Origin: Terriglobia bacterium
GTDB lineage: Bacteria; Acidobacteriota; Terriglobia; Bryobacterales; Bryobacteraceae
Direction: 5' to 3'
Assembly: GCA_020073345.1 (NCBI GenBank)
Contig: JAIQFI010000003.1
Coordinates: forward strand, 62,001-126,000
Length of the DNA stretch: 64,000 bases
Part shown: positions 55,639 through 64,000 of the stretch, piece by piece
Numbering within the stretch: position 1 is the first letter of the stretch
How the letters are laid out: every line of letters begins with the position of its first letter
Program-made: the position numbers and the translations under genes
The notes under the pieces: generated by a model
Told to the model about the DNA's origin: nothing
The model's database searches: none
Seen by the model: only the letters and a program-made list of their open reading frames with translations

Positions 55639-57102
55639 ATGGCTGATCCCATACTCAATAAGCTCAAACACCACTGGAACGTCTCCAACCGGCGCGAGTT
55701 CTTCACGCAGGCGGGCAGCGGGCTGGCGGGGATCGCCCTGGCCGCCATGATGGCGGAAGACGGCTACGCCGCGGGGGTCGATCCTCTCGCGCCTAAGAAG
55801 CCCCACGTCACTCCGCGAGCTAAGAACGTGATCTGGTGCTTCATGGAAGGCGGACCGAGCCAGGTGGATCTGTTCGATCCCAAGCCGCTCCTGGATAAGC
55901 TCGCGTTACAGCCGGTGCCTCCGTCGTTTCATCCCGAGACGCTGCTGACCGCGCAGGGCGCCAAGCCCAGCGATGGTCTCTTTCCCGCGCGTCGGCCCTT
56001 TAAGCAGTATGGGCAGAGCGGCCTGTGGGTCTCGGACTGGCTGCCGCACATCGCCCAGCACGTGGACGACATCGCGGTGATCCGGTCCTGCCAATCCGAC
56101 GCTGTGAATCACGTCGGCGGCGTGTGCCAGATGAACACCGGTTCGATCCTGGCAGGGCGTCCTTCGCTGGGAGCCTGGCTGACCTACGGACTGGGCAGCG
56201 CGCAGCGGAATCTGCCGACCTTCGTGGTCATGCAGGACGATAAAGAGATCCTGGGCGCGGTGCAGAACTACGGCTCGGGTTTCCTGCCAGCGACGTATCA
56301 AGGCACGCTGTTCCGCCAGGGCGATACGCCTATCCTCAACTTGAAGCCGCCCGCCGGAACTACCGATGAGCAGCAGCGCAGTAAGATCGAACTGTTGCAG
56401 AAACTGAATGAGCTGTATGGGCGCGATAAGCTGGACGACACCGAGCTCGACGCGCGCACGCGCTCGTATGAGCTGGCTTACCAGATGCAATCCTCCGCGC
56501 CGGAAGCGGTGGATCTCAGCAAAGAGAGCGAAGCCACCAAGAAGCTGTACGGTATGGACGAGAGAGAGACCGCGGTGTACGGCGCGAACTGCCTCATGGC
56601 CCGCCGGCTGGTCGAGCGCGGGGTACGGTTCGTTGAGGTCTACAGCGGCTCCGGCTCAGGCTGGGACGCACACCAGGACGTCAACAACAATCACACCAAG
56701 TGGTGCAAGGCTTCCGATAAGCCGGTGGCTGGCCTGTTGGCCGATCTGAAGGCTCGCGGGATGCTGGAAAATACGCTGGTGGTGTGGGGCGGCGAATTCG
56801 GCCGCACCCCGTTCGCGCAAATCTCGGCCGGTCAGACCCCGGAAAAGTACGGGCGCGATCACAATCCGTGGGGCTTCACCATGTGGATGGCGGGAGGCGG
56901 CGTCAAGGGCGGCCAGACGATCGGCACCACCGACGAAATCGGGCTGCGGGCGGTCGAGGAACCGCATCATGTGTGGGACATCCACGCTTCGATCCTCTAT
57001 CTGCTGGGTCTCGATCACCTGAAGACCACCTACATGCATAACGGCCGCGCCGAACGGCCCACGGTCACCGGCGGGAACCTGATCCAGAAACTGTGGGCTT
57101 GA
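55639..57102 (+). CDS. DUF1501 Tat-secreted protein
   Basis: 487 aa with a twin-arginine signal (NRREFFTQAGSGLAGIALAA) and an AGGAGG ribosome site. The domain has NVIWCFMEGGPSQVDLFDPK, the DUF1501 opening, then SDWLPHIAQHVDDIAVIRSC, NHVGGVCQMNTGSILAGRPS, YSGSGSGWDAHQDVNNNHTKW and VVWGGEFGRTPFAQ, ending in the metal-binding-like pattern. DUF1501 has a sulfatase/phosphatase-like fold. Nearly all copies are encoded beside a DUF1549/DUF1553 protein, as here. Function unknown. It overlaps the next gene by four bases. Confidence 0.9.
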   Translation: MADPILNKLKHHWNVSNRREFFTQAGSGLAGIALAAMMAEDGYAAGVDPLAPKKPHVTPRAKNVIWCFMEGGPSQVDLFDPKPLLDKLALQPVPPSFHPETLLTAQGAKPSDGLFPARRPFKQYGQSGLWVSDWLPHIAQHVDDIAVIRSCQSDAVNHVGGVCQMNTGSILAGRPSLGAWLTYGLGSAQRNLPTFVVMQDDKEILGAVQNYGSGFLPATYQGTLFRQGDTPILNLKPPAGTTDEQQRSKIELLQKLNELYGRDKLDDTELDARTRSYELAYQMQSSAPEAVDLSKESEATKKLYGMDERETAVYGANCLMARRLVERGVRFVEVYSGSGSGWDAHQDVNNNHTKWCKASDKPVAGLLADLKARGMLENTLVVWGGEFGRTPFAQISAGQTPEKYGRDHNPWGFTMWMAGGGVKGGQTIGTTDEIGLRAVEEPHHVWDIHASILYLLGLDHLKTTYMHNGRAERPTVTGGNLIQKLWA

Positions 57103-57536
57103 AATCGCTCGGACTGATCTTGCTCTCGGTCGCGGCGGCGGCAGCCCAGCCGTTTCCTGATGGGCCGGGAAAGGACCTGGTGGAAGCTGTCTGCACTGCC
57201 TGCCACTCGCAGGAGCGCATCGTCGCGAAACGGGGAACCAAAGCGGAGTGGCAATCCAAGGTGCTGGAAATGCTTCAGGAGGACCCGGACATCACCCAGC
57301 AGGAAAGAGATCGGATTGTCGAATATCTGGCCAGGAGCTTTCCGCCCAGGGTGAATGTGAATAAGGCAGGGGCCAAGGACCTGGCGGAGGCGCTGGAGCT
57401 TTCCGCTAAGGAAGCGGATGCCATCGTTGGTTATCGCTCGGAAAATAGTAGCTTTAAGACGGTAGATGACCTGAAGAAGGTGCCGGGCCTGGACGCCACG
57501 AAGATCGAGGCTCATCGGGACCGTCTGGAATTCTGA
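57099..57536 (+). CDS. cytochrome c haem domain fused to ComEA-like helix-hairpin-helix domain
   Basis: 145 aa from the TTG at 57099, which overlaps the preceding TGA as TTGA and gives a clean signal peptide (MKSLGLILLSVAAAAAQ); a GTG six bases upstream is the alternative. A haem-binding CTACH (C32, C35, H36) follows in a short cytochrome-like helix region, then a ComEA-type HhH domain begins NVNKAGAKDLAEALELSAKE, with IVGYRSENSSFKTVDDLKKV and PGLDATKIEAHRD. Competence ComEA uses this domain to bind DNA; the haem domain is unusual there. It is the last gene of the DUF1549-DUF1501 operon. Confidence 0.8.
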   Translation: MKSLGLILLSVAAAAAQPFPDGPGKDLVEAVCTACHSQERIVAKRGTKAEWQSKVLEMLQEDPDITQQERDRIVEYLARSFPPRVNVNKAGAKDLAEALELSAKEADAIVGYRSENSSFKTVDDLKKVPGLDATKIEAHRDRLEF

Positions 57537-57548
57537 CAAGGGACCCGT

Positions 57549-57602
57549 TGACACGGTCAAGCTATTGATAGTACTCTAGTTCGAAGTCCTTGGAGGTATT
57601 TT
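57549..57602 (+). promoter_or_regulatory. promoter and leader of the DUF6152 gene at 57607
   Basis: TTGACA (57549-57554) is followed after 15 bases by TAGTAC, a weak -10, within a 70-base gap. A GGAGG ribosome site at about 57591 sets the ATG at 57607. The pair is short of the ideal spacing, so this is a modest call. Confidence 0.35.
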
Positions 57603-57606
57603 TATC

Positions 57607-58023
57607 ATGAGAACTAAGTTCGTTCTGATTGCGGCGAGTCTGGTGGTTGCTGCCGCCGTGCCGATGCTGGCGCACCATTCGATCGCGGCTGAATTCGATT
57701 CAACCAAAACCGTAAAAGTGACCGGTACCGTCACGAAACTGGACTGGATGAATCCTCACATCTGGGTCTACATGAACGTGAAGGATGAGGGCGGCAAGAT
57801 CACCAAGTGGCAATTCGAAGGTGGTCCGCCCAACTCGCTCCGCAGGAACGGCTGGACCAAGGATTCCCTGAAGGAAGGCGATACGGTCACCGTCGAAGGC
57901 ATTCGCGCCAAGGACCCGGTGAACGCCGAAGGCGCCTACGTGGGCAACGCCCGAAACGTTACTCTGCCGGACGGCAGGAGAGTGTTCAGCGGATCCGCCG
58001 AAGACGGCGGCAAGCAGCAATAA
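57607..58023 (+). CDS. DUF6152 family secreted protein
   Basis: 138 aa, signal MRTKFVLIAASLVVAAAVPMLA then HHSIAAEFDSTKTVKVTGTV, the DUF6152 hallmark. It continues KLDWMNPHIWVYMNVKDEGG, FEGGPPNSLRRNGWTKDSL and AEGAYVGNARNVTLPDGR. It is the same family as 14196 and has the same order of motifs, with an OB-like fold expected. The nearest neighbours are the DUF1501 operon upstream and the convergent ParB-like gene downstream. Function unknown. Confidence 0.88.
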   Translation: MRTKFVLIAASLVVAAAVPMLAHHSIAAEFDSTKTVKVTGTVTKLDWMNPHIWVYMNVKDEGGKITKWQFEGGPPNSLRRNGWTKDSLKEGDTVTVEGIRAKDPVNAEGAYVGNARNVTLPDGRRVFSGSAEDGGKQQ

Positions 58024-58036
58024 CGGCGCGCACGCT

Positions 58037-58672
58037 CTACGCCTTTAAGTTCGCGGGATTCGTACGTGGGCGCTGTTTCTGTACGCCTTCAAAGATTTCA
58101 TTGAAGTCGCGGAACAGCGCCTTGTAGTTCTCTGGATTGCGATATTCCTTCTTCTGGTAGCCTTCCTGCAGTTCTTCCAACTCTTCCACTTGGGCCCAGC
58201 CGTCCGGCAGCGCGTAGGCGTAATACGGATATTCTGGCGGCACGTTGCGGGCTAACACCACGTTGATCTTCCGCCTGCGCTTGCGGGCGGCGTATACGCG
58301 ATGGATGCCATCGTTGATTAGCAGGACCTTCGTGCCGTCGCGCTCTATCGATTCCTCGATCACGGGCGGGAGGAACGGGATGGGCGCGTCACGATCGGGG
58401 TCGCTTCCCTCGGGCCAGAACAGCAGGGCGCCGCGCAGAGTGAAGATGTCGATGCCGAGAGGCTGGAACGCGTCAGCCACGTCCAGAATCGCCTGGACGC
58501 CTTCCTGCAGCACGTAGCGCTGTGCCGGAGTCAGCGCCGCGGGATCGGTTTCGATGACTTCTAGCGTCGCGTTGCGATAGACTTCAGCGCGGTCGAACCC
58601 TCGCAAGCGAGTGCGCTTCAGGCGACTCAACAGGTCGGCTTCGGGAAGGAGCTCGTACTTAGTAATTTGCAT
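58037..58672 (-). CDS. ParB/sulfiredoxin-like protein
   Basis: 211 aa starting MQITKYELLPEADLLSRL. The region FLPPVIEESIERDGTKVLLINDGIHRVYAARKRRRK (about 108-143) matches the ParB/Srx pattern of a variable loop followed by D-G-x-H-R and a following Ala; the C-terminal part is helical and acidic. A standard ParB domain has no DNA-binding HTH here, so it may be an NTP-binding or nuclease-like stand-alone ParB fold. Its ATG overlaps the end of the HAD gene by 14 bases, making it the third gene of the overlapping operon. Confidence 0.65.
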   Translation of the reverse strand: MQITKYELLPEADLLSRLKRTRLRGFDRAEVYRNATLEVIETDPAALTPAQRYVLQEGVQAILDVADAFQPLGIDIFTLRGALLFWPEGSDPDRDAPIPFLPPVIEESIERDGTKVLLINDGIHRVYAARKRRRKINVVLARNVPPEYPYYAYALPDGWAQVEELEELQEGYQKKEYRNPENYKALFRDFNEIFEGVQKQRPRTNPANLKA

Positions 58673-59339
58673 GGCTCAACAATTTGGATGGATCCAGTTG
58701 CGTGATCGAGGCCAGCGTGAGGTCGGGCGGCGGGGCATCGCCATTCATGACGTCGATCAAGTCGGCTTTCTCCTTCTCAGGACGGTGCAGAACCCACACG
58801 GTGCGCATCCCCAGCTCGATCGCGGGCCGGATATCGTTTTTATAAGTATCGCCCACCATCACGGCGTCTTCGGCGCGGGCTTCGACAGCGCGCAAGGCCA
58901 GTTGGAAGAATGCCGGGTCGGGCTTCATCAGTCCGGTTTCGAAGGAGAGGAACTGCGGCTGGTTCTCCACTTCTTCCGCGAACTCCTGCTTGAAGTGCTC
59001 GTAGAACGGGGGCCAGATATTCGAGAGATAGGCTCTGGAAATCCCGGCGGATTTCAGCTTTTCGATCAGCTCGCGCGCGCCGGGCAGGACGTAAGCTTCC
59101 TCAAGCTGGGCGTTCCATAGAGTGGTGCAGGCTTCCAGAGCTCTATTGTGATCGACGCGCAAGCGATTGACGATGGTATTCGCGAGTTGCTCCGGATCGC
59201 TCGCGGGGGAACGGAACAGGATGCGCTCCAGCTCCCGCACGGTCGCCGGACCGAGGCCGAGCATTTCCGAAAGCCGCCGGGCAGGACCAAAAGGCGGCCC
59301 ATCGATCAGCGTCGAGCCGATATCAAAGATTACCAGCAT
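58659..59339 (-). CDS. HAD-superfamily hydrolase
   Basis: 226 aa. Motif I is FDIGST (nucleophile D6, with Gly where the second acid is normal), motif II LSNIW, motif III GLMKPDPAFF (Lys) and motif IV VGDTYKNDI. The cap is helical, as in phosphoglycolate phosphatase-like enzymes. It should remove a phosphate, possibly from a nucleotide in view of its partners. Motif I has D-I-G rather than D-x-D, which some HAD members lack for phosphomutase or dehalogenase activity. Its start lies 17 bases inside the end of the thymidylate-synthase-like gene. Confidence 0.85.
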   Translation of the reverse strand: MLVIFDIGSTLIDGPPFGPARRLSEMLGLGPATVRELERILFRSPASDPEQLANTIVNRLRVDHNRALEACTTLWNAQLEEAYVLPGARELIEKLKSAGISRAYLSNIWPPFYEHFKQEFAEEVENQPQFLSFETGLMKPDPAFFQLALRAVEARAEDAVMVGDTYKNDIRPAIELGMRTVWVLHRPEKEKADLIDVMNGDAPPPDLTLASITQLDPSKLLSHANY

Positions 59340-60900
59340 GCCTGCCCAAATCCGTCAGGCCGTAGAACTCTTCGTTTGCCTTCCGCTGTTTCTTCATTTC
59401 GGCTTCCTGCTCAGCTAGCTTACGACCAAGGTAGAGCGCGTGAGAGATCAACGACACCGCCATGTCTCGCGCGAGTTTGCGCTCGATTTCTTCCGCGTTC
59501 TTGCCGCGGTATTCACCAAGCTTCGTCCCGTTATAGGAGTGCTCCACGACGAGTTCCCACGTGGTCCTATCAAAAGTCATCGTGAACTCACCGTTCGGAT
59601 CCATTCGGAGCTCGTGTTTGCCAGTAACAAAATCGAGCACATCGTCACTGTCCTTGCGATTTGCTATTTTTCTTGCTTTGTCCAGCGACGTCACGTCAAT
59701 GCTTATCGAGTGACTGAAAACCGTTATCGGTCCCGGCTCCATATCGGCTTCGTCGGCCACGCACCGCTGGATAGCGATGAGTCCGTACACATTCTCCGGC
59801 CAAGCGTCTAATGCATTGTGGGAGCGGAAGGTCGCCGTCAGCGTCAGCTTGCCTTCAAACTTCCTAAAAAACGCGGAAACAAAGCAGGGAGTGTCTGTGC
59901 CCTCGGGAAGATCGCGTGTGTTATCCCAAAGGGCAATATAGGCGTGACGCGATTCCGGTTTCTCTTTGAGCCGACGTCCAACAATCTCCAGAGAGTCTAG
60001 GACCTTCTGACCGCGGCGGAAATACCCACGCAAGCGATTTCCGTAGGTATAAGCAAGATCAGAAGGCTTTCTCTTATCAAGGATCTGATCTTGATACGCT
60101 CGGAATTTCTGCAGGCTGAATCCGAACTGCGTCAATATGGCGTCAGGCTCTTCTGCCGGTTGCTCGATGACTATCTTGACGTTCTGAAGCTCGACGCGGT
60201 CCTCTGGACCGCTTCGTTTAGCGACTTGATTGCGATGGCCGAAGCGAAACAAGCGGAAGACCAACTCTGACCACGCTTCCATGGGCGTATCACGCACGAT
60301 GGTGTGGCTGCGGGGCTCAGAAGGAAAACGGGTAACGGCCGGCTCAGGAATCTGCGGAGGCTCAATGCGCTCCAGCTCACATGGCTCGGGCAATGGAAGC
60401 GTATCAAAAAACACTTTAAGCGATTGCTTAGTCACCGCATCACCTACATCACCGAGCACTGTGAACGCCGGCTTAGTCACAAAGTTGTGCGGTTGCACGC
60501 ATCCGTCGATAGTGCGGGTCGTGTTCCGAATCTGAAATGCCCTGGCTCCCAGGAACTCCACCTCTTCCAAGCCGTGCTCGAAGAAGTTCACCAGCCATTC
60601 CCTAGAGCCCGAGAGATTCTTACCCACGATTACGATCTGCCGGATTTGCGGATTCCAGAGCAGGTTCCGCAACATCTGCGGCAACCCATTTCCGTATAAA
60701 TTAGAAATGATCGCTATCCGCGAAGTACTGGGCGAAAGATCGACTCCTGCCTCTTCGAGGATCCTAATCGCAGATTCAACCTTGGACCACAGTGTGGTGA
60801 TGGCAACATCACCCGCAGGATTAATGAGGGTCAGGCGATCTTCGTAGTAGCGTGGCTCAAACTTGAGTGCCACGCCGTATTTTACCCCAGTGTTAGGCAC
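59323..60900 (-). CDS. archaeal-type thymidylate-synthase-like protein with DUF4346/MtrA-like N-terminal domain
   Basis: 525 aa, GTG start at 60900. Residues 60-160 look like DUF4346/MtrA (RIAIISNLYGNGLPQML, NPQIRQIVIVGKNLSGSREW). Residues 320-490 follow archaeal thymidylate synthase: TDTPCFVSAFFRKFEGKLTL (C339 as candidate nucleophile), FRSHNALDAWPENVYGL (R359, N370), TVFSHSISIDV, LRMDPNGEF, WELVVEHSYNGTKLGEYRGK and LISHALYLGRKLAE. In the archaeal enzyme the SHS segment continues with a His-x-Tyr pair that holds deoxyribose; here it is S-I-D (400-402), a by-eye alignment. A base-modifying or hydroxymethylating role is inferred. The gene is visibly more A/T-rich than its flanks. It overlaps HAD downstream and a small ORF upstream. 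Confidence 0.82.
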   Translation of the reverse strand: MPNTGVKYGVALKFEPRYYEDRLTLINPAGDVAITTLWSKVESAIRILEEAGVDLSPSTSRIAIISNLYGNGLPQMLRNLLWNPQIRQIVIVGKNLSGSREWLVNFFEHGLEEVEFLGARAFQIRNTTRTIDGCVQPHNFVTKPAFTVLGDVGDAVTKQSLKVFFDTLPLPEPCELERIEPPQIPEPAVTRFPSEPRSHTIVRDTPMEAWSELVFRLFRFGHRNQVAKRSGPEDRVELQNVKIVIEQPAEEPDAILTQFGFSLQKFRAYQDQILDKRKPSDLAYTYGNRLRGYFRRGQKVLDSLEIVGRRLKEKPESRHAYIALWDNTRDLPEGTDTPCFVSAFFRKFEGKLTLTATFRSHNALDAWPENVYGLIAIQRCVADEADMEPGPITVFSHSISIDVTSLDKARKIANRKDSDDVLDFVTGKHELRMDPNGEFTMTFDRTTWELVVEHSYNGTKLGEYRGKNAEEIERKLARDMAVSLISHALYLGRKLAEQEAEMKKQRKANEEFYGLTDLGRHAGNL

Positions 60901-61012
60901 CAGCGCGTGTAGTCAAATCCTTGTGCGTGGCCGCGGCGAGGACGCTGGTTCCGACCGCCCAGTAAGTCTCAATAACCGAAACGATCACAGACGACCTGAC
61001 ACTTGCTATCAT
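60893..61012 (-). CDS. 39-aa predicted membrane peptide upstream of the thymidylate-synthase-like gene
   Basis: ATG at 61012 with a strong GGGAGGT ribosome site four bases away. It encodes MIASVRSSVIVSVIETYWAV then GTSVLAAATHKDL, a hydrophobic helix with a polar tail. Its stop overlaps the GTG start of the next gene by eight bases, so it could be a coupling leader or a small membrane partner. The frame is open for 23 residues further upstream, but the strong ribosome site favours the internal start. Real gene status is uncertain. Confidence 0.45.
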   Translation of the reverse strand: MIASVRSSVIVSVIETYWAVGTSVLAAATHKDLTTRAGA

Positions 61013-61144
61013 GCTTACCTCCCGGAACCACAATTTGGCTAACAAGAACTTACAAACAGCTAAGCTAAAGAACCAAAACATCCAGGCGGCGAAACCAGCT
61101 TCACTCGCGGACCCGAAGACCGTTAGAAATTCTATTTTACCGCA

Positions 61145-61573
61145 TCAACCTAAGCGTTGACCGATATGCGGGGAATCCAACGCCTCACGAACGGGTGGTT
61201 TCCTACCAGCGGCCACAAGGCAACGGTCTTCGGCATCCCAGAAGATTTGGATGAGGTCAACAAGTGAGTCATTGTCTTCAAATAACGTGCCGCGACCATG
61301 GTGGTAGCAATCTTCAAGCGCGCCAGTGACAATCTCTAAGTCTTCTTCTGCTATGTCGACCCGAAAAGTCGGCGGTTGTTGCGATGAGGTCTGGGTGCTG
61401 ATACTGTCGACCAATCTGACAAAGAAACCCAGAGCTTGGCGAGAGCCGCGATTGTGCGATACACTTTCGGCCTGCCAATCAATGGCTTCGACCAGCAGTT
61501 TCAGATATTTCCATGGAGCGGAAACCTGCACACACTCATTATACTTCTCGTCAACAGTGTGACTTCTCTCCAC
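61145..61573 (-). CDS. hypothetical protein
   Basis: 142 aa with a GTG start at 61573. Acidic, helix-rich: WKYLKLLVEAIDWQAESV, VDSISTQTSSQQPPTFRVDIAEEDLEIV and SLVDLIQIFWDAEDRCLVAAG. No domain recognised and no membrane segment. It is transcribed toward the thymidylate-synthase-like operon, 132 bases away, and lies in the same A/T-richer island, so it may belong to that system. Third-position composition differs from the flanking dioxygenase gene. Confidence 0.5.
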   Translation of the reverse strand: MERSHTVDEKYNECVQVSAPWKYLKLLVEAIDWQAESVSHNRGSRQALGFFVRLVDSISTQTSSQQPPTFRVDIAEEDLEIVTGALEDCYHHGRGTLFEDNDSLVDLIQIFWDAEDRCLVAAGRKPPVREALDSPHIGQRLG

Positions 61574-61603
61574 GTCAACTTCCGGGCCGTAGCCGAAAGC
61601 ACC

Positions 61604-62515
61604 CTACGCTTTTGCCACGATCTGCGACGGATCCGCGCCCACGCGTCCGGTCATATCCTTAGCAGTCGCGTGAGCGAGCTTGAAGTCGAATTTGATGCTG
61701 GGCAGAGTCGGGATCGGCGAATTGGGATCCTTCTCGTTGACCCTGGTGACCAGCGATTCGGTAACGCCAAACACCGTATCGGAATCGACGTGCGGATCGC
61801 CCGCCAGGTACAGCGCCGTCACCACTTCGCGATAACCAGGCGCGCCGACGATGAAGTGAATGTGCGCGGGCCGGTACCCGTGGCGCTTTTGCGCGCGAAT
61901 CATGTCTCCCACGGGGCCATCCATCGGGATCATATACCCAAGCGGAGCAACCGTGCGCAGGTAGTAACGACCGTCGTTGTCGGTATGGAAATGACCGCGC
62001 AGGTCCATCTCCGAAGGATCGTGCTTCTGCAGATCGTAGTTGCCGGTTTCATCCGGCTGCCAAACCTCGACCGAAGCATTCGGAACGCCCTTCCCCGTCC
62101 CATCCGTGACGCGCCCGTAGAGGACGACTTCCAACCCTTTGCTGGGCTTGGTCACGATGGTATCGCCCAGCTTCATCGGGGGAGAATCCTGGCGGTAGAA
62201 CGGCCCCACCAGACTGCTCTTGGTCCCGGCTTCGGTGGCGCGCTTGTCGTGGAGGGAGTTGATCAGCGAACTCATTCCCAGCGTGTCGGAAAGCAAAATG
62301 AATTCCTGACGGAACGCCGTGCACTTCTGGCCCACCGCGGTGAGGAACTTGATCCCCTCCAGCCATTCTTCCGGAGTGAGATCCGCCTCGCGCGCCCAAG
62401 CGTGCAGGTGCTTCACCAGCGGCTCCATGATCTGCTTCAGCCGGGGGTTGGGCGTACCCGCCATCTGCTCAATGGCGGCGTCGGTAATGGTGTTCTCATC
62501 AATCGCGCGTAGCAT
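61604..62515 (-). CDS. intradiol ring-cleavage dioxygenase (catechol/hydroxyquinol type)
   Basis: 303 aa. The N-terminal helical domain (LTPEEWLEGIKFLTAVGQKC) matches catechol 1,2-dioxygenases, followed by SLVGPFYRQD and a beta-sandwich with VEVWQPDETGNYD, DGRYYLRTVAPLGYMIP and RPAHIHFIV. The non-haem Fe(III) ligands are probably Y160, Y194, H218 and H220. These enzymes open catechol or hydroxyquinol rings; the hydroxyquinol-like length and N-terminus fit best. It is followed downstream by no pathway gene; the upstream membrane protein is separated by 27 bases and may transport the substrate. Confidence 0.9.
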   Translation of the reverse strand: MLRAIDENTITDAAIEQMAGTPNPRLKQIMEPLVKHLHAWAREADLTPEEWLEGIKFLTAVGQKCTAFRQEFILLSDTLGMSSLINSLHDKRATEAGTKSSLVGPFYRQDSPPMKLGDTIVTKPSKGLEVVLYGRVTDGTGKGVPNASVEVWQPDETGNYDLQKHDPSEMDLRGHFHTDNDGRYYLRTVAPLGYMIPMDGPVGDMIRAQKRHGYRPAHIHFIVGAPGYREVVTALYLAGDPHVDSDTVFGVTESLVTRVNEKDPNSPIPTLPSIKFDFKLAHATAKDMTGRVGADPSQIVAKA

Positions 62516-62542
62516 AAATTTGTTTATCCTTCTCCAACTAGT

Positions 62543-63592
62543 CTATTCCGGTTTCGCCTTCGCCAGTGGCCACATCTTGAAGAATTCCGCGAAGAAAATC
62601 AGGAACGGGAAGGTGACGCCGAGCAGCGCCGTTGCCAGCCAGATCTCGAAATCGTTCGTCGGCGGTCCCGGCTTCAGGACCCCGGTGACCACCGGCGCCA
62701 CCGCGCCATACATCTTCGCGAGCAAAACTCCGATCACCGCTGCTGCGATGCAGTTCAGCACCCCCTTCAAGGGCTGGCTGAACTTGGCGAACAACGAATT
62801 GTGCAGCATATTCAGCAGCACGATGGTTCCAAAGATGAACGGGATCGGCCCGGAGATCAGGAACCCCATCGGATCCATGCCCATCGTCGTCACGCCGATG
62901 TAGTACGCCAGCGCGCCCAGCACCAGCGCCAGCAGCGTCCACACACTGCCGAGTACAGGTTGTTTCATCACGGCCGGCGACGATGTGAACGGCCACAAAT
63001 CGAAATGCAGCAGCACAAACAGGAACGTGAGCGCAGTTACGTAGAACACCTGCGCATTGACGCCGTTGAACATCCCGTGCGGGTCGATACTGGCCTTATA
63101 CCAAGGAGCGCCCGCCATGAAGCTGAAATCGAAAAACAAGCGGAATAGCAGGTAGTTAATGATGTAGACCGCCGCCAGCATCACCAAGCCGGCTCCCACC
63201 GGACTCTTGATCAGGCTGGTGAACGGCCACCCTCCGAACATGATCGCGAGCCAGAATGTTACCACCACCGAAACGATGCCGAACAAGACCAAAATCGGAA
63301 TAGGCGGAGCAATGCCGCCGCCCACGACCGCGTGGCAGATTCCACCCACGATCACACCTATAACGATATTCACCAGCACCAGCAGAATCCCCTTCAAAGG
63401 CTGGGGCTGAGAGCTGACGAAGCCCGGATTGGCGCCCCACGTTACGCCGATGACGATTTCCATCGGAATTATGGACGCCATGACGAAGATAACCCAACTG
63501 CCGAACGTCGGGAAATCGAACAGGGAAATGACGCCCAGGGAAACCGCCATGATCAGGACGGTCGACACAATTCCAAGCGCGGGCTGCTTCAT
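62543..63592 (-). CDS. internally duplicated integral membrane protein of unknown function
   Basis: 349 aa from the ATG at 63592, with an AGGAGG ribosome site. About ten hydrophobic helices. The two halves are similar: MKQPALGIVSTVLI near residue 1 recurs as MKQPVLGSVWTLLA near residue 209, and QPLKGILLVLVNIVIGVIVG near 62 recurs as QPLKGVLNCIAAAVIGVLLA later, each followed by a Pro-rich segment and a W-rich helix. This is a fused tandem repeat, so the pair of halves may fold as inverted or parallel repeats like a transporter. It is directly upstream of the dioxygenase (27-base gap), which suggests uptake of aromatic compounds, an inference only. Confidence 0.75.
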   Translation of the reverse strand: MKQPALGIVSTVLIMAVSLGVISLFDFPTFGSWVIFVMASIIPMEIVIGVTWGANPGFVSSQPQPLKGILLVLVNIVIGVIVGGICHAVVGGGIAPPIPILVLFGIVSVVVTFWLAIMFGGWPFTSLIKSPVGAGLVMLAAVYIINYLLFRLFFDFSFMAGAPWYKASIDPHGMFNGVNAQVFYVTALTFLFVLLHFDLWPFTSSPAVMKQPVLGSVWTLLALVLGALAYYIGVTTMGMDPMGFLISGPIPFIFGTIVLLNMLHNSLFAKFSQPLKGVLNCIAAAVIGVLLAKMYGAVAPVVTGVLKPGPPTNDFEIWLATALLGVTFPFLIFFAEFFKMWPLAKAKPE

Positions 63593-63652
63593 GCATCCTC
63601 CTACGTGGGAAGTCCGGAGTCGAGATAATATACCACAGAGCGGAACGCGGAC

Positions 63653-64000
63653 ATGAATCCCGAGCGTTGGCAGCAGGTCGAGGCGGTATATCACGCCGCG
63701 CGGCATCGAACCCCAAAGGAACGGGGTGCGTTTCTGGACGGTGCATGCCGTGACGACTCGGATCTGCGCCGGAGAGTCGAGTCGCTGCTGGCCGGAGAAG
63801 CCGCTGGCAATGGCTCCCCCGACAGCGCTACCTTCACCGTGGCGGCGGCAGGTTCCCGAGATCCCGGCGGGCTCACGGGCGGCTCCTGGCTGGGTCCATA
63901 CCAGATCGAAACGCCTCTGGGGGCCGGAGGGATGGGGCAGGTGTACCGGGCACGCGATACGCGCCTGTCCCGGTCCGTTGCCGTCAAGGTGCTGTCGGCC
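63653..64000 (+). CDS. Ser/Thr protein kinase, truncated by the window edge
   Basis: The first 116 codons from the ATG at 63653. The N-terminus ([39 protein letters not shown]) is the acidobacterial pre-kinase helix region, followed by [20 protein letters not shown] (Gly loop) and VAVKVLSA, with the catalytic Lys. The rest of the kinase and any sensor domain lies outside the window. It is divergent from the membrane protein at 63592 across 60 bases. Relatives carry TolB/TPR or NHL sensor domains. Confidence 0.9.

Follow-up and report, generated by a model that had tools for sequence, protein, structure and literature searches.

A thymidylate synthase fusion operon as a candidate replacement for ThyX, or for ThyA and FolA, in an acidobacterial genus and in Patescibacteria

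The locus and its three proteins

We analyzed a stretch of 64,000 nucleotides from a Terriglobia bacterium (contig JAIQFI010000003.1; hereafter the window), in which three genes on the minus strand form an operon headed by a thymidylate synthase (TS) fused to other domains. The original prediction, made from the sequence of the window, had described these genes as encoding TS-like, HAD and ParB-like proteins and overlapping by 17 and 14 bases, and the coordinates confirm this layout. The TS-like open reading frame (ORF), including an upstream extension, is open from 59323 to 60900 (525 residues). In an alignment, homologues of the TS-fusion protein start around M-x-F-E-x-x-Y-Y, and judged from them the gene probably begins with the GTG at 60873 (59323..60873). 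The HAD-superfamily gene follows at 58659..59339 and the ParB-CE gene at 58037..58672. With that probable start, a 62-residue hydrophobic ORF (60893-61081) that had been reported to overlap the TS gene by 8 bases would not reach it; among 15 loci, tblastn matched this ORF only in the genome of the window itself, and it is probably not a gene. The A/T-richness claimed for the operon proved mild, with a G+C fraction (GC) of 0.564 versus 0.602 for the window and 6 of 123 equal-size windows lower. No Rfam match was found within 57000-64000 of the window.

Profile searches matched the TS-like protein to both families that had been named for it. The TS domain (PF00303; 59659..60315, minus strand) scored 43.6 bits (E 2.6e-11, cut-off 24.3), and the PterinBD-DUF4346 domain (PF14251; 59383..59604, minus strand) scored 50.6 bits (E 3.5e-13, cut-off 29.6). 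The latter occupies residues 433-506 of 525 and is C-terminal; of the DUF4346/MtrA-like N-terminus proposed earlier, only the MtrA-like part stood. The best NCBIfam model was that of the methanogen TS, TIGR03283 (thy_syn_methano; 112.7 bits, below its cut-off of 174.55), in line with the archaeal TS segments noticed before, and the ThyA equivalog TIGR03284 gave 30.7 bits versus a cut-off of 108.35. In two homologues, L020 and L032, TIGR03283 scored 109.4 and 67.8 bits. The ThyX family PF02511 was absent among the protein's Pfam matches at E<=1.

An MtrA-like region (60292..60873, minus strand) makes up the N-terminus. MtrA models reach both ends of the protein, NF002126 at the N-terminus (E 0.021) and NF002128 at the C-terminus (E 2.7e-11). 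The N-terminal likeness is weak in the branch of the window, where PF04208 (MtrA) was absent among the Pfam matches of the window protein at E<=1 and the PDB MtrA structure 8q3v gave E 0.12. It is clear in the distant homologue L032 (PF04208 28.1 bits, cut-off 25; 8q3v E 8.9e-7), in which PF14251 was not found at E<=0.1.

Within the TS domain, Cys331, Arg351 and Asn362 (A1 numbering, in which residue 1 lies at base 60876; Cys331 codon at 59884..59886, minus strand) do not vary across 9 diverse rows; in the alignment their counterparts in L. casei TS are Cys198, Arg218 and Asn229, which we take to be catalytic positions. The best PDB sequence match of the fusion had E 7.2e-7 with the single protein and 2.3e-10 with a profile. 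An AlphaFold2 model of the fusion was modest (predicted local distance difference test score, pLDDT, 65.6). Structural matches of its TS part ranged overall from Z 15.3 to 19.6, with VIA Z 19.6 for a phage TS-fold deoxycytidine monophosphate (dCMP) hydroxylase (root-mean-square deviation, rmsd, 3.1; 201 aligned), 17.2 for MilA (rmsd 3.1; 205 aligned) and 16.4 for ThyA (rmsd 3.5; 198 aligned), differences near 1 being treated as ties.

The assignment of the third gene as ParB-like was upheld by PF24392 (E 3.5e-33, 115.1 bits, cut-off 23). This was its sole Pfam match at E<=1, and no helix-turn-helix DNA-binding domain was recognized at that threshold. A DGxHR motif is invariant in 8 diverse ParB-CE sequences. 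Searches of PDB sequences with ParB-CE gave no useful match, and the best fold matches, obtained with a poor model (pLDDT 50.5), were sulfiredoxin and free serine kinase (Z 5.7, rmsd 3.2-3.3, 84-88 aligned). The HAD assignment of the second gene also holds at the level of Pfam; its best NCBIfam model, TIGR02253, was below cut-off, with pyrimidine nucleotidase models lower in the ranking. Motif I of HAD phosphatases is DxD. In all seven copies from the genus of the window it reads FDIGST (D-I-G), and since the second Asp is missing, the label "phosphatase" is not secure for this protein. The HAD of L032 and both NT5C neighbours described below have DxD.

Distribution in the genus and in Patescibacteria

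The set of relatives comprised 61 genomes (G000-G060), 23 of them from the genus of the window; because these are draft or metagenome assemblies, any single gene absence is weak. A search with the TS protein gave 8 matches. Seven were near full length and all lay in the genus (7/23), and the eighth was a classical ThyA in G054. All seven of these TS genes had adjoining HAD and ParB-CE genes, consistent with the expectation that the three would co-occur, and PF24392 was present in exactly those 7 of the 61 relatives and in 0 of 14 control genomes. The seven fusions were the only PF00303 matches in the genus, where no classical ThyA was found.

ThyX (PF02511) was present in 50 of the 61 relatives. 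No ThyX was found in the other 11: the seven fusion genomes, G054 (a carrier of ThyA and FolA), and G031, G049 and G053. Within the genus the split is exact: seven genomes have the fusion without ThyX, 16 have ThyX without the fusion, and none has both or neither (Fisher p 4e-6, kinship ignored). FolA (PF00186) was detected in 1 of 61 relatives, G054, and was not found in the 7 fusion genomes of the genus. A MutL tree covered 20 of the 23 genus genomes (three lacked a MutL match, and pieces were joined for fragmented ones); on it, the seven carriers form two clades, of 4 and 3, with two label changes, and 0 of 500 shuffles gave as few. The operon occupies two different genomic sites in the genus. 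Among 396 genomes drawn from the phylum of the window, with part of the genus included, the search returned two of the genus and one partial stand-alone TS. As to ThyX itself, in 49 of the 50 genomes it consists of two PF02511 stretches in one long frame (one stretch in G059), and this tandem form adjoins dUTPase in L033 and L034.

A scan of genome contigs found 7 loci, five from the genus of the window and two from Patescibacteria, L006 (62% identity) and L007 (59%). In both of the latter, PF24392 or a close relative lies beside TS, together with dCMP-deaminase-like and NT5C-type genes, and L007 additionally has a dUTPase. Among 197 genomes of the same order, PF24392 was detected at E<=0.001 in three, G453 (the genome of L006), G498 and, weakly, G539, two of them over cut-off. 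G539 carries a distant version of the cluster in which HAD, a 799-residue protein homologous to MtrA (PF04208, above cut-off) and to TIGR03283, a cytidine-deaminase-like gene and ParB-CE (23.3 bits, cut-off 23) lie on one strand, followed by GlyA and, further on, dUTPase.

The strongest single result came from the position of these clusters. Homologous genes border one slot in G453, G454, G539 and G498: nusG with rplK at one end, argS with an ileS-like gene at the other (the flank names in G498 are from Pfam, "ileS" by reading). Between rplK and argS, G498 carries FolA (DHFR_1, 160.6 bits), a cytidylyltransferase, dCMP deaminase, ThyA (Thymidylat_synt, 206.5) and tmk (Thymidylate_kin, 128). 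In G453, G454 and G539 the same slot holds the fusion-TS cluster with ParB-CE, HAD (NT5C in two) and deaminase. Since the fusion cluster and FolA-ThyA-tmk use the same slot, we read this as a probable joint replacement of thyA and folA in place. The drafts of G453, G454 and G539 (3/3) yielded no ThyX and no FolA; in G498, FolA is present and ThyX was not found, and no fusion TS was found within two stretches totalling 31 kb.

Several other features of these regions were recorded. The cytidylyltransferase-like gene of the G498 slot (PF01467; L060:8018-8662) lies between FolA and dCMP deaminase, and the ileS-like synthetase of G498 (L060:13638-17231) has an inserted histidine-phosphatase domain (PF00300, E 1e-30, residues 518-682). 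Outside the slot, between argS and ileS, L007 carries a reverse-transcriptase gene (PF00078, 93.1 bits; L007:11347-12444). The ParB-CE gene of G498 is located at L031:6558-7385, with no TS homologue in the same stretch; the same 13 kb contain a dCMP-deaminase-like gene and a deoxynucleoside-kinase-like gene (PF01712, 27.8 bits, cut-off 27).

Scans of viral contigs, which depend on matching short peptide patterns, yielded one TS fusion, L020 (52% identity), and the same contig again when its own protein was the query; ParB-CE was found on none. Phage records matched the TS part alone (9 records, 24.6-27.7% identity), with no ParB-CE at E<=1e-3, and plasmids gave no match at E<=1e-8. There are signs of the transfer that had been suggested at the outset: occurrence in the genus is patchy, two genomic sites are used, and relatives occur in Patescibacteria as well as on a single viral contig. 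In the PADLOC database of defence systems, the three operon proteins and a 142-residue ORF of the window had 0 matches at E<=1, and distant ParB-CE and TS proteins had none at E<=0.01.

That 142-residue ORF (61145-61573) sits in a low-GC stretch (60874-61603, GC 0.519), matched nothing in Pfam or NCBIfam at E<=1, and in tblastn among 15 loci had no relative beyond the window's own locus. Four copies of the operon (window, L002, L003 and L004) are flanked by an intradiol-dioxygenase gene and a DUF6152 gene. The remaining three copies in the genus are without these flanks, L005 and L008 having a different upstream neighbourhood in common, and mutL lies ~3 kb beyond ParB-CE in G008 and likewise in G014. 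L008 is labelled Bordetella parapertussis but carries a MutL 100% identical to the one in G014, a member of the genus of the window; it is probably a mislabelled metagenome-assembled genome.

Proposed function and competing explanations

We propose, with a probability of about 0.82, that this operon serves the organism as its thymidylate synthase system and can replace ThyX, or ThyA together with FolA. The computed basis is the domain content, the conserved linkage, the exclusion with ThyX, the fusion cluster in the folA-thyA slot of a relative, and the failure to find FolA; throughout, it is a comparison of draft genomes. The TS domain would bind deoxyuridine monophosphate (dUMP), the invariant Cys would activate C5 of dUMP, and a reduced pterin, bound with the aid of the PterinBD-DUF4346 domain and perhaps also of the MtrA-like one, would supply a one-carbon unit. 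The product is predicted to be deoxythymidine monophosphate (dTMP), and ordinary dTMP, because the module replaces ThyX and ThyA-FolA; the same replacement tells against the base-modification role first suggested. Alongside TS, ParB-CE would act as a near-constant and, to go by its modelled fold, probably nucleotide-binding partner, and the HAD protein would be a common nucleotide-handling one.

Since the fusion replaces ThyX, and ThyA with FolA, no dependence on a FolA-type dihydrofolate reductase (DHFR) would be expected. As described in the accessible portion of PMC9931769, classical ThyA, which leaves dihydrofolate behind, is coupled to FolA, and ThyX does not depend on FolA. FolA was not found in the drafts of any of the 10 fusion genomes (7 of the genus and 3 Patescibacteria), a hint that the pterin either comes back reduced, and is not left as a dihydropterin, or is reduced by an enzyme other than FolA. 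The module sits in part among dUMP-making and one-carbon-making genes, and the earlier idea of a conserved unit in pyrimidine deoxynucleotide metabolism is supported.

A number of observations weigh against this proposal. No TS equivalog model gives the TS-like protein a score above its curated cut-off, and the His that follows the catalytic Cys in ThyA is Phe in the fusion. ParB-CE does not go with the fusion in every genome, as G498 has it alongside ThyA and FolA, and L020 has no recognizable ParB-CE in its 13 kb (best tblastn E 0.13). In the genus, FolA is missing from the ThyX genomes as well, and the module is therefore not the reason for the lack of FolA in that genus. Three of the 61 relatives (G031, G049 and G053) yielded no match to the fusion TS, ThyX or PF00303. 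Independent events are few, one origin in the genus also being compatible with the MutL tree. Finally, the dCTPase model of PADLOC (630 positions) is matched over a deaminase stretch (E 1.5e-18 to 4e-13) by dCMP-deaminase-like neighbours, those in L006 and L007 as well as one in L031, and L007 has the reverse-transcriptase gene noted above; because deaminases of both kinds are related, this does not decide the matter. For G031, G049 and G053, assembly gaps, salvage or a different thymidylate route could each account for the lack of a TS.

The chemistry can be envisaged in several ways. We rank first, at distinctly less than even odds, an ordinary ThyA-type reaction, in which methylenetetrahydrofolate (CH2-H4folate) donates both carbon and hydride, dihydrofolate is recycled by an unrecognized reductase other than FolA, and the extra domains scaffold or regulate. 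The retained Cys, Arg and Asn positions of ThyA are consistent with this route, as is the position of GlyA, the maker of CH2-H4folate, next to the fusion in G539. Against it, FolA was not found in any of the ten fusion genomes, the G498 slot has FolA with ThyA where fusion genomes have neither, and the constant ParB-CE and extra domains are left unexplained.

An unlikely second route has two steps: the TS domain would hydroxymethylate dUMP without pterin oxidation, a ParB-CE resembling the serine kinase SerK would phosphorylate the hydroxymethyl group, and reduction would give dTMP; alternatively, 5-hydroxymethyl-dUMP would be the final product. DHFR would not be needed, the match of the TS model to the hydroxymethylase MilA is slightly above that to ThyA, and ParB-CE matches sulfiredoxin and free serine kinase. 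However, the Z scores of MilA and ThyA are ties by the rule given above, the ParB-CE model is poor, no conserved reductase is seen in the cluster, and no result supports a hydroxymethyl product.

Rather less likely again is a MetH-like transfer, in which a methyl group would pass from methyl-pterin on DUF4346, via a corrinoid on the MtrA-like domain, to TS-activated dUMP, with ParB-CE as an ATP-dependent reactivator. The domain order (MtrA-like, TS, pterin-binding) fits such a transfer, PF04208 is above cut-off in a distant homologue, and it would explain why DHFR is not needed. According to the portion of PMC4915002 that was available, MtrA binds cobalt via His84, which is hydrogen-bonded to Glu54, and residues including Asn64 contact the cobalamin tail. 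Asn64 is kept in 9 of the 10 sequences of alignment A3 and in L032. However, His84 is aligned with Ser91 in all 10 (by the weak alignment to MtrA, E 0.12) and Glu54 with Tyr61 by ungapped extension, and in L032 these two positions are Phe and Asn. Judged from these alignments, the MtrA scaffold is retained and the cobalt ligand is not, and since His84 is aligned with Ser, corrinoid use by the MtrA-like domain is doubtful. A corrinoid-dependent TS, attractive from the domains, was downgraded after this comparison, and the corrinoid binding first suggested is weakened with it. In L020, the viral homologue, a cobalamin adenosyltransferase is encoded nearby; this would suit a corrinoid route, but the enzyme may instead serve the neighbouring B12-reductase-like gene. 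In this region (L020:6001-10383), the TS fusion is accompanied by that B12-reductase-like gene (PF21995, E 0.0011, below cut-off) and by the adenosyltransferase, which is of the PduO type (TIGR00636, 127.7 bits, cut-off 108.45).

The probability left over by these routes falls to a TS with another donor or reductant, for example a flavin as in TS-fold dCMP hydroxylases. Least probable by far is a defence or hypermodified-base module brought by a mobile element, with coincidental loss of ThyX: the patchy distribution, mildly low GC, viral-contig homologue, ParB and HAD partners and partial dCTPase-model matches of the deaminase neighbours would suit it, but the exact exclusion with ThyX, the fusion cluster in a folA-thyA slot beside nusG-rplK and argS, the thymidylate-pathway neighbours and the operon proteins' lack of PADLOC matches all oppose it. 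This reading was considered first and was set aside after the ThyX exclusion and the shared slot; defence or signalling, as had been put forward, is not supported as the main role.

Returning to the operon as a thymidylate synthase system, we tentatively suggest a new mechanism for it, in which a TS-fold enzyme would work without pterin oxidation, together with a partner of the ParB/sulfiredoxin/serine-kinase fold, through either phosphorylated 5-hydroxymethyl-dUMP or methyl transfer. If true, this would be a third thymidylate route, needing neither DHFR nor the flavin chemistry of ThyX, and a separate MtrA-DUF4346 protein would be the expected partner of the stand-alone methanogen TS.

Comparison with known systems

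Two types of thymidylate synthase, the FolA-coupled ThyA and ThyX, are described in the available portions of PMC9931769 and PMC3352284. Placed among them by sequence, the fusion is a member of the TS superfamily that falls, by the cut-offs, outside the ThyA and TIGR03283 equivalogs. In the open-access literature, subscription papers being outside the search, we found no description of the fusion or of its ParB-CE partner, and no mention of DUF4346; literature on ParB-CE, in the portions available, concerns partition, segregation and polarity. There is a real chance that the mechanism itself is new.

With the ThyA/FolA pair, the fusion shares the TS fold, the Cys, Arg and Asn positions and the chromosomal slot in Patescibacteria; it differs in its distant sequence, in the Phe for His after the catalytic Cys, in its extra domains and in that FolA was not found. 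With ThyX it shares the cellular role, as judged by replacement, and also the independence from FolA that the available part of PMC9931769 gives for ThyX, but it has no match to PF02511. MilA, a cytidine monophosphate (CMP) hydroxymethylase, and the TS-fold flavin dCMP hydroxylases 9iqc and 9iqu are the top structural matches of the TS domain; by their titles they act on (d)CMP, whereas the context of the fusion is thymidylate synthesis.

MtrA, the corrinoid subunit of methyl-H4MPT:CoM methyltransferase (H4MPT, tetrahydromethanopterin; CoM, coenzyme M), resembles the fusion in N-terminal and C-terminal homology, in the order of the MtrA-type model NF002128; in the fusion a TS domain lies in between and the cobalt ligand His84 is not kept. 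ParB-CE may have its fold in common with the ParB/sulfiredoxin/free serine kinase superfamily (Z 5.7, from the weak model), and it carries the DGxHR motif. It differs from ParB in that no DNA-binding domain was among its Pfam matches at E<=1 and in that its neighbour is TS, not ParA. PF24392 and PF14251 thereby gain a concrete and testable context.

The methanogen TS, TIGR03283, is the best model for the TS domain of the fusion. That model is 201 positions long; the fusion, which is bacterial and scores below the model's cut-off, adds MtrA-like and DUF4346 domains and is accompanied by ParB-CE. To our knowledge, how the methanogen TS runs without FolA is an open question. An operon that seemingly replaces ThyA or ThyX in two phyla offers a way into it, and the gene fusion hints at which archaeal proteins may partner TS.

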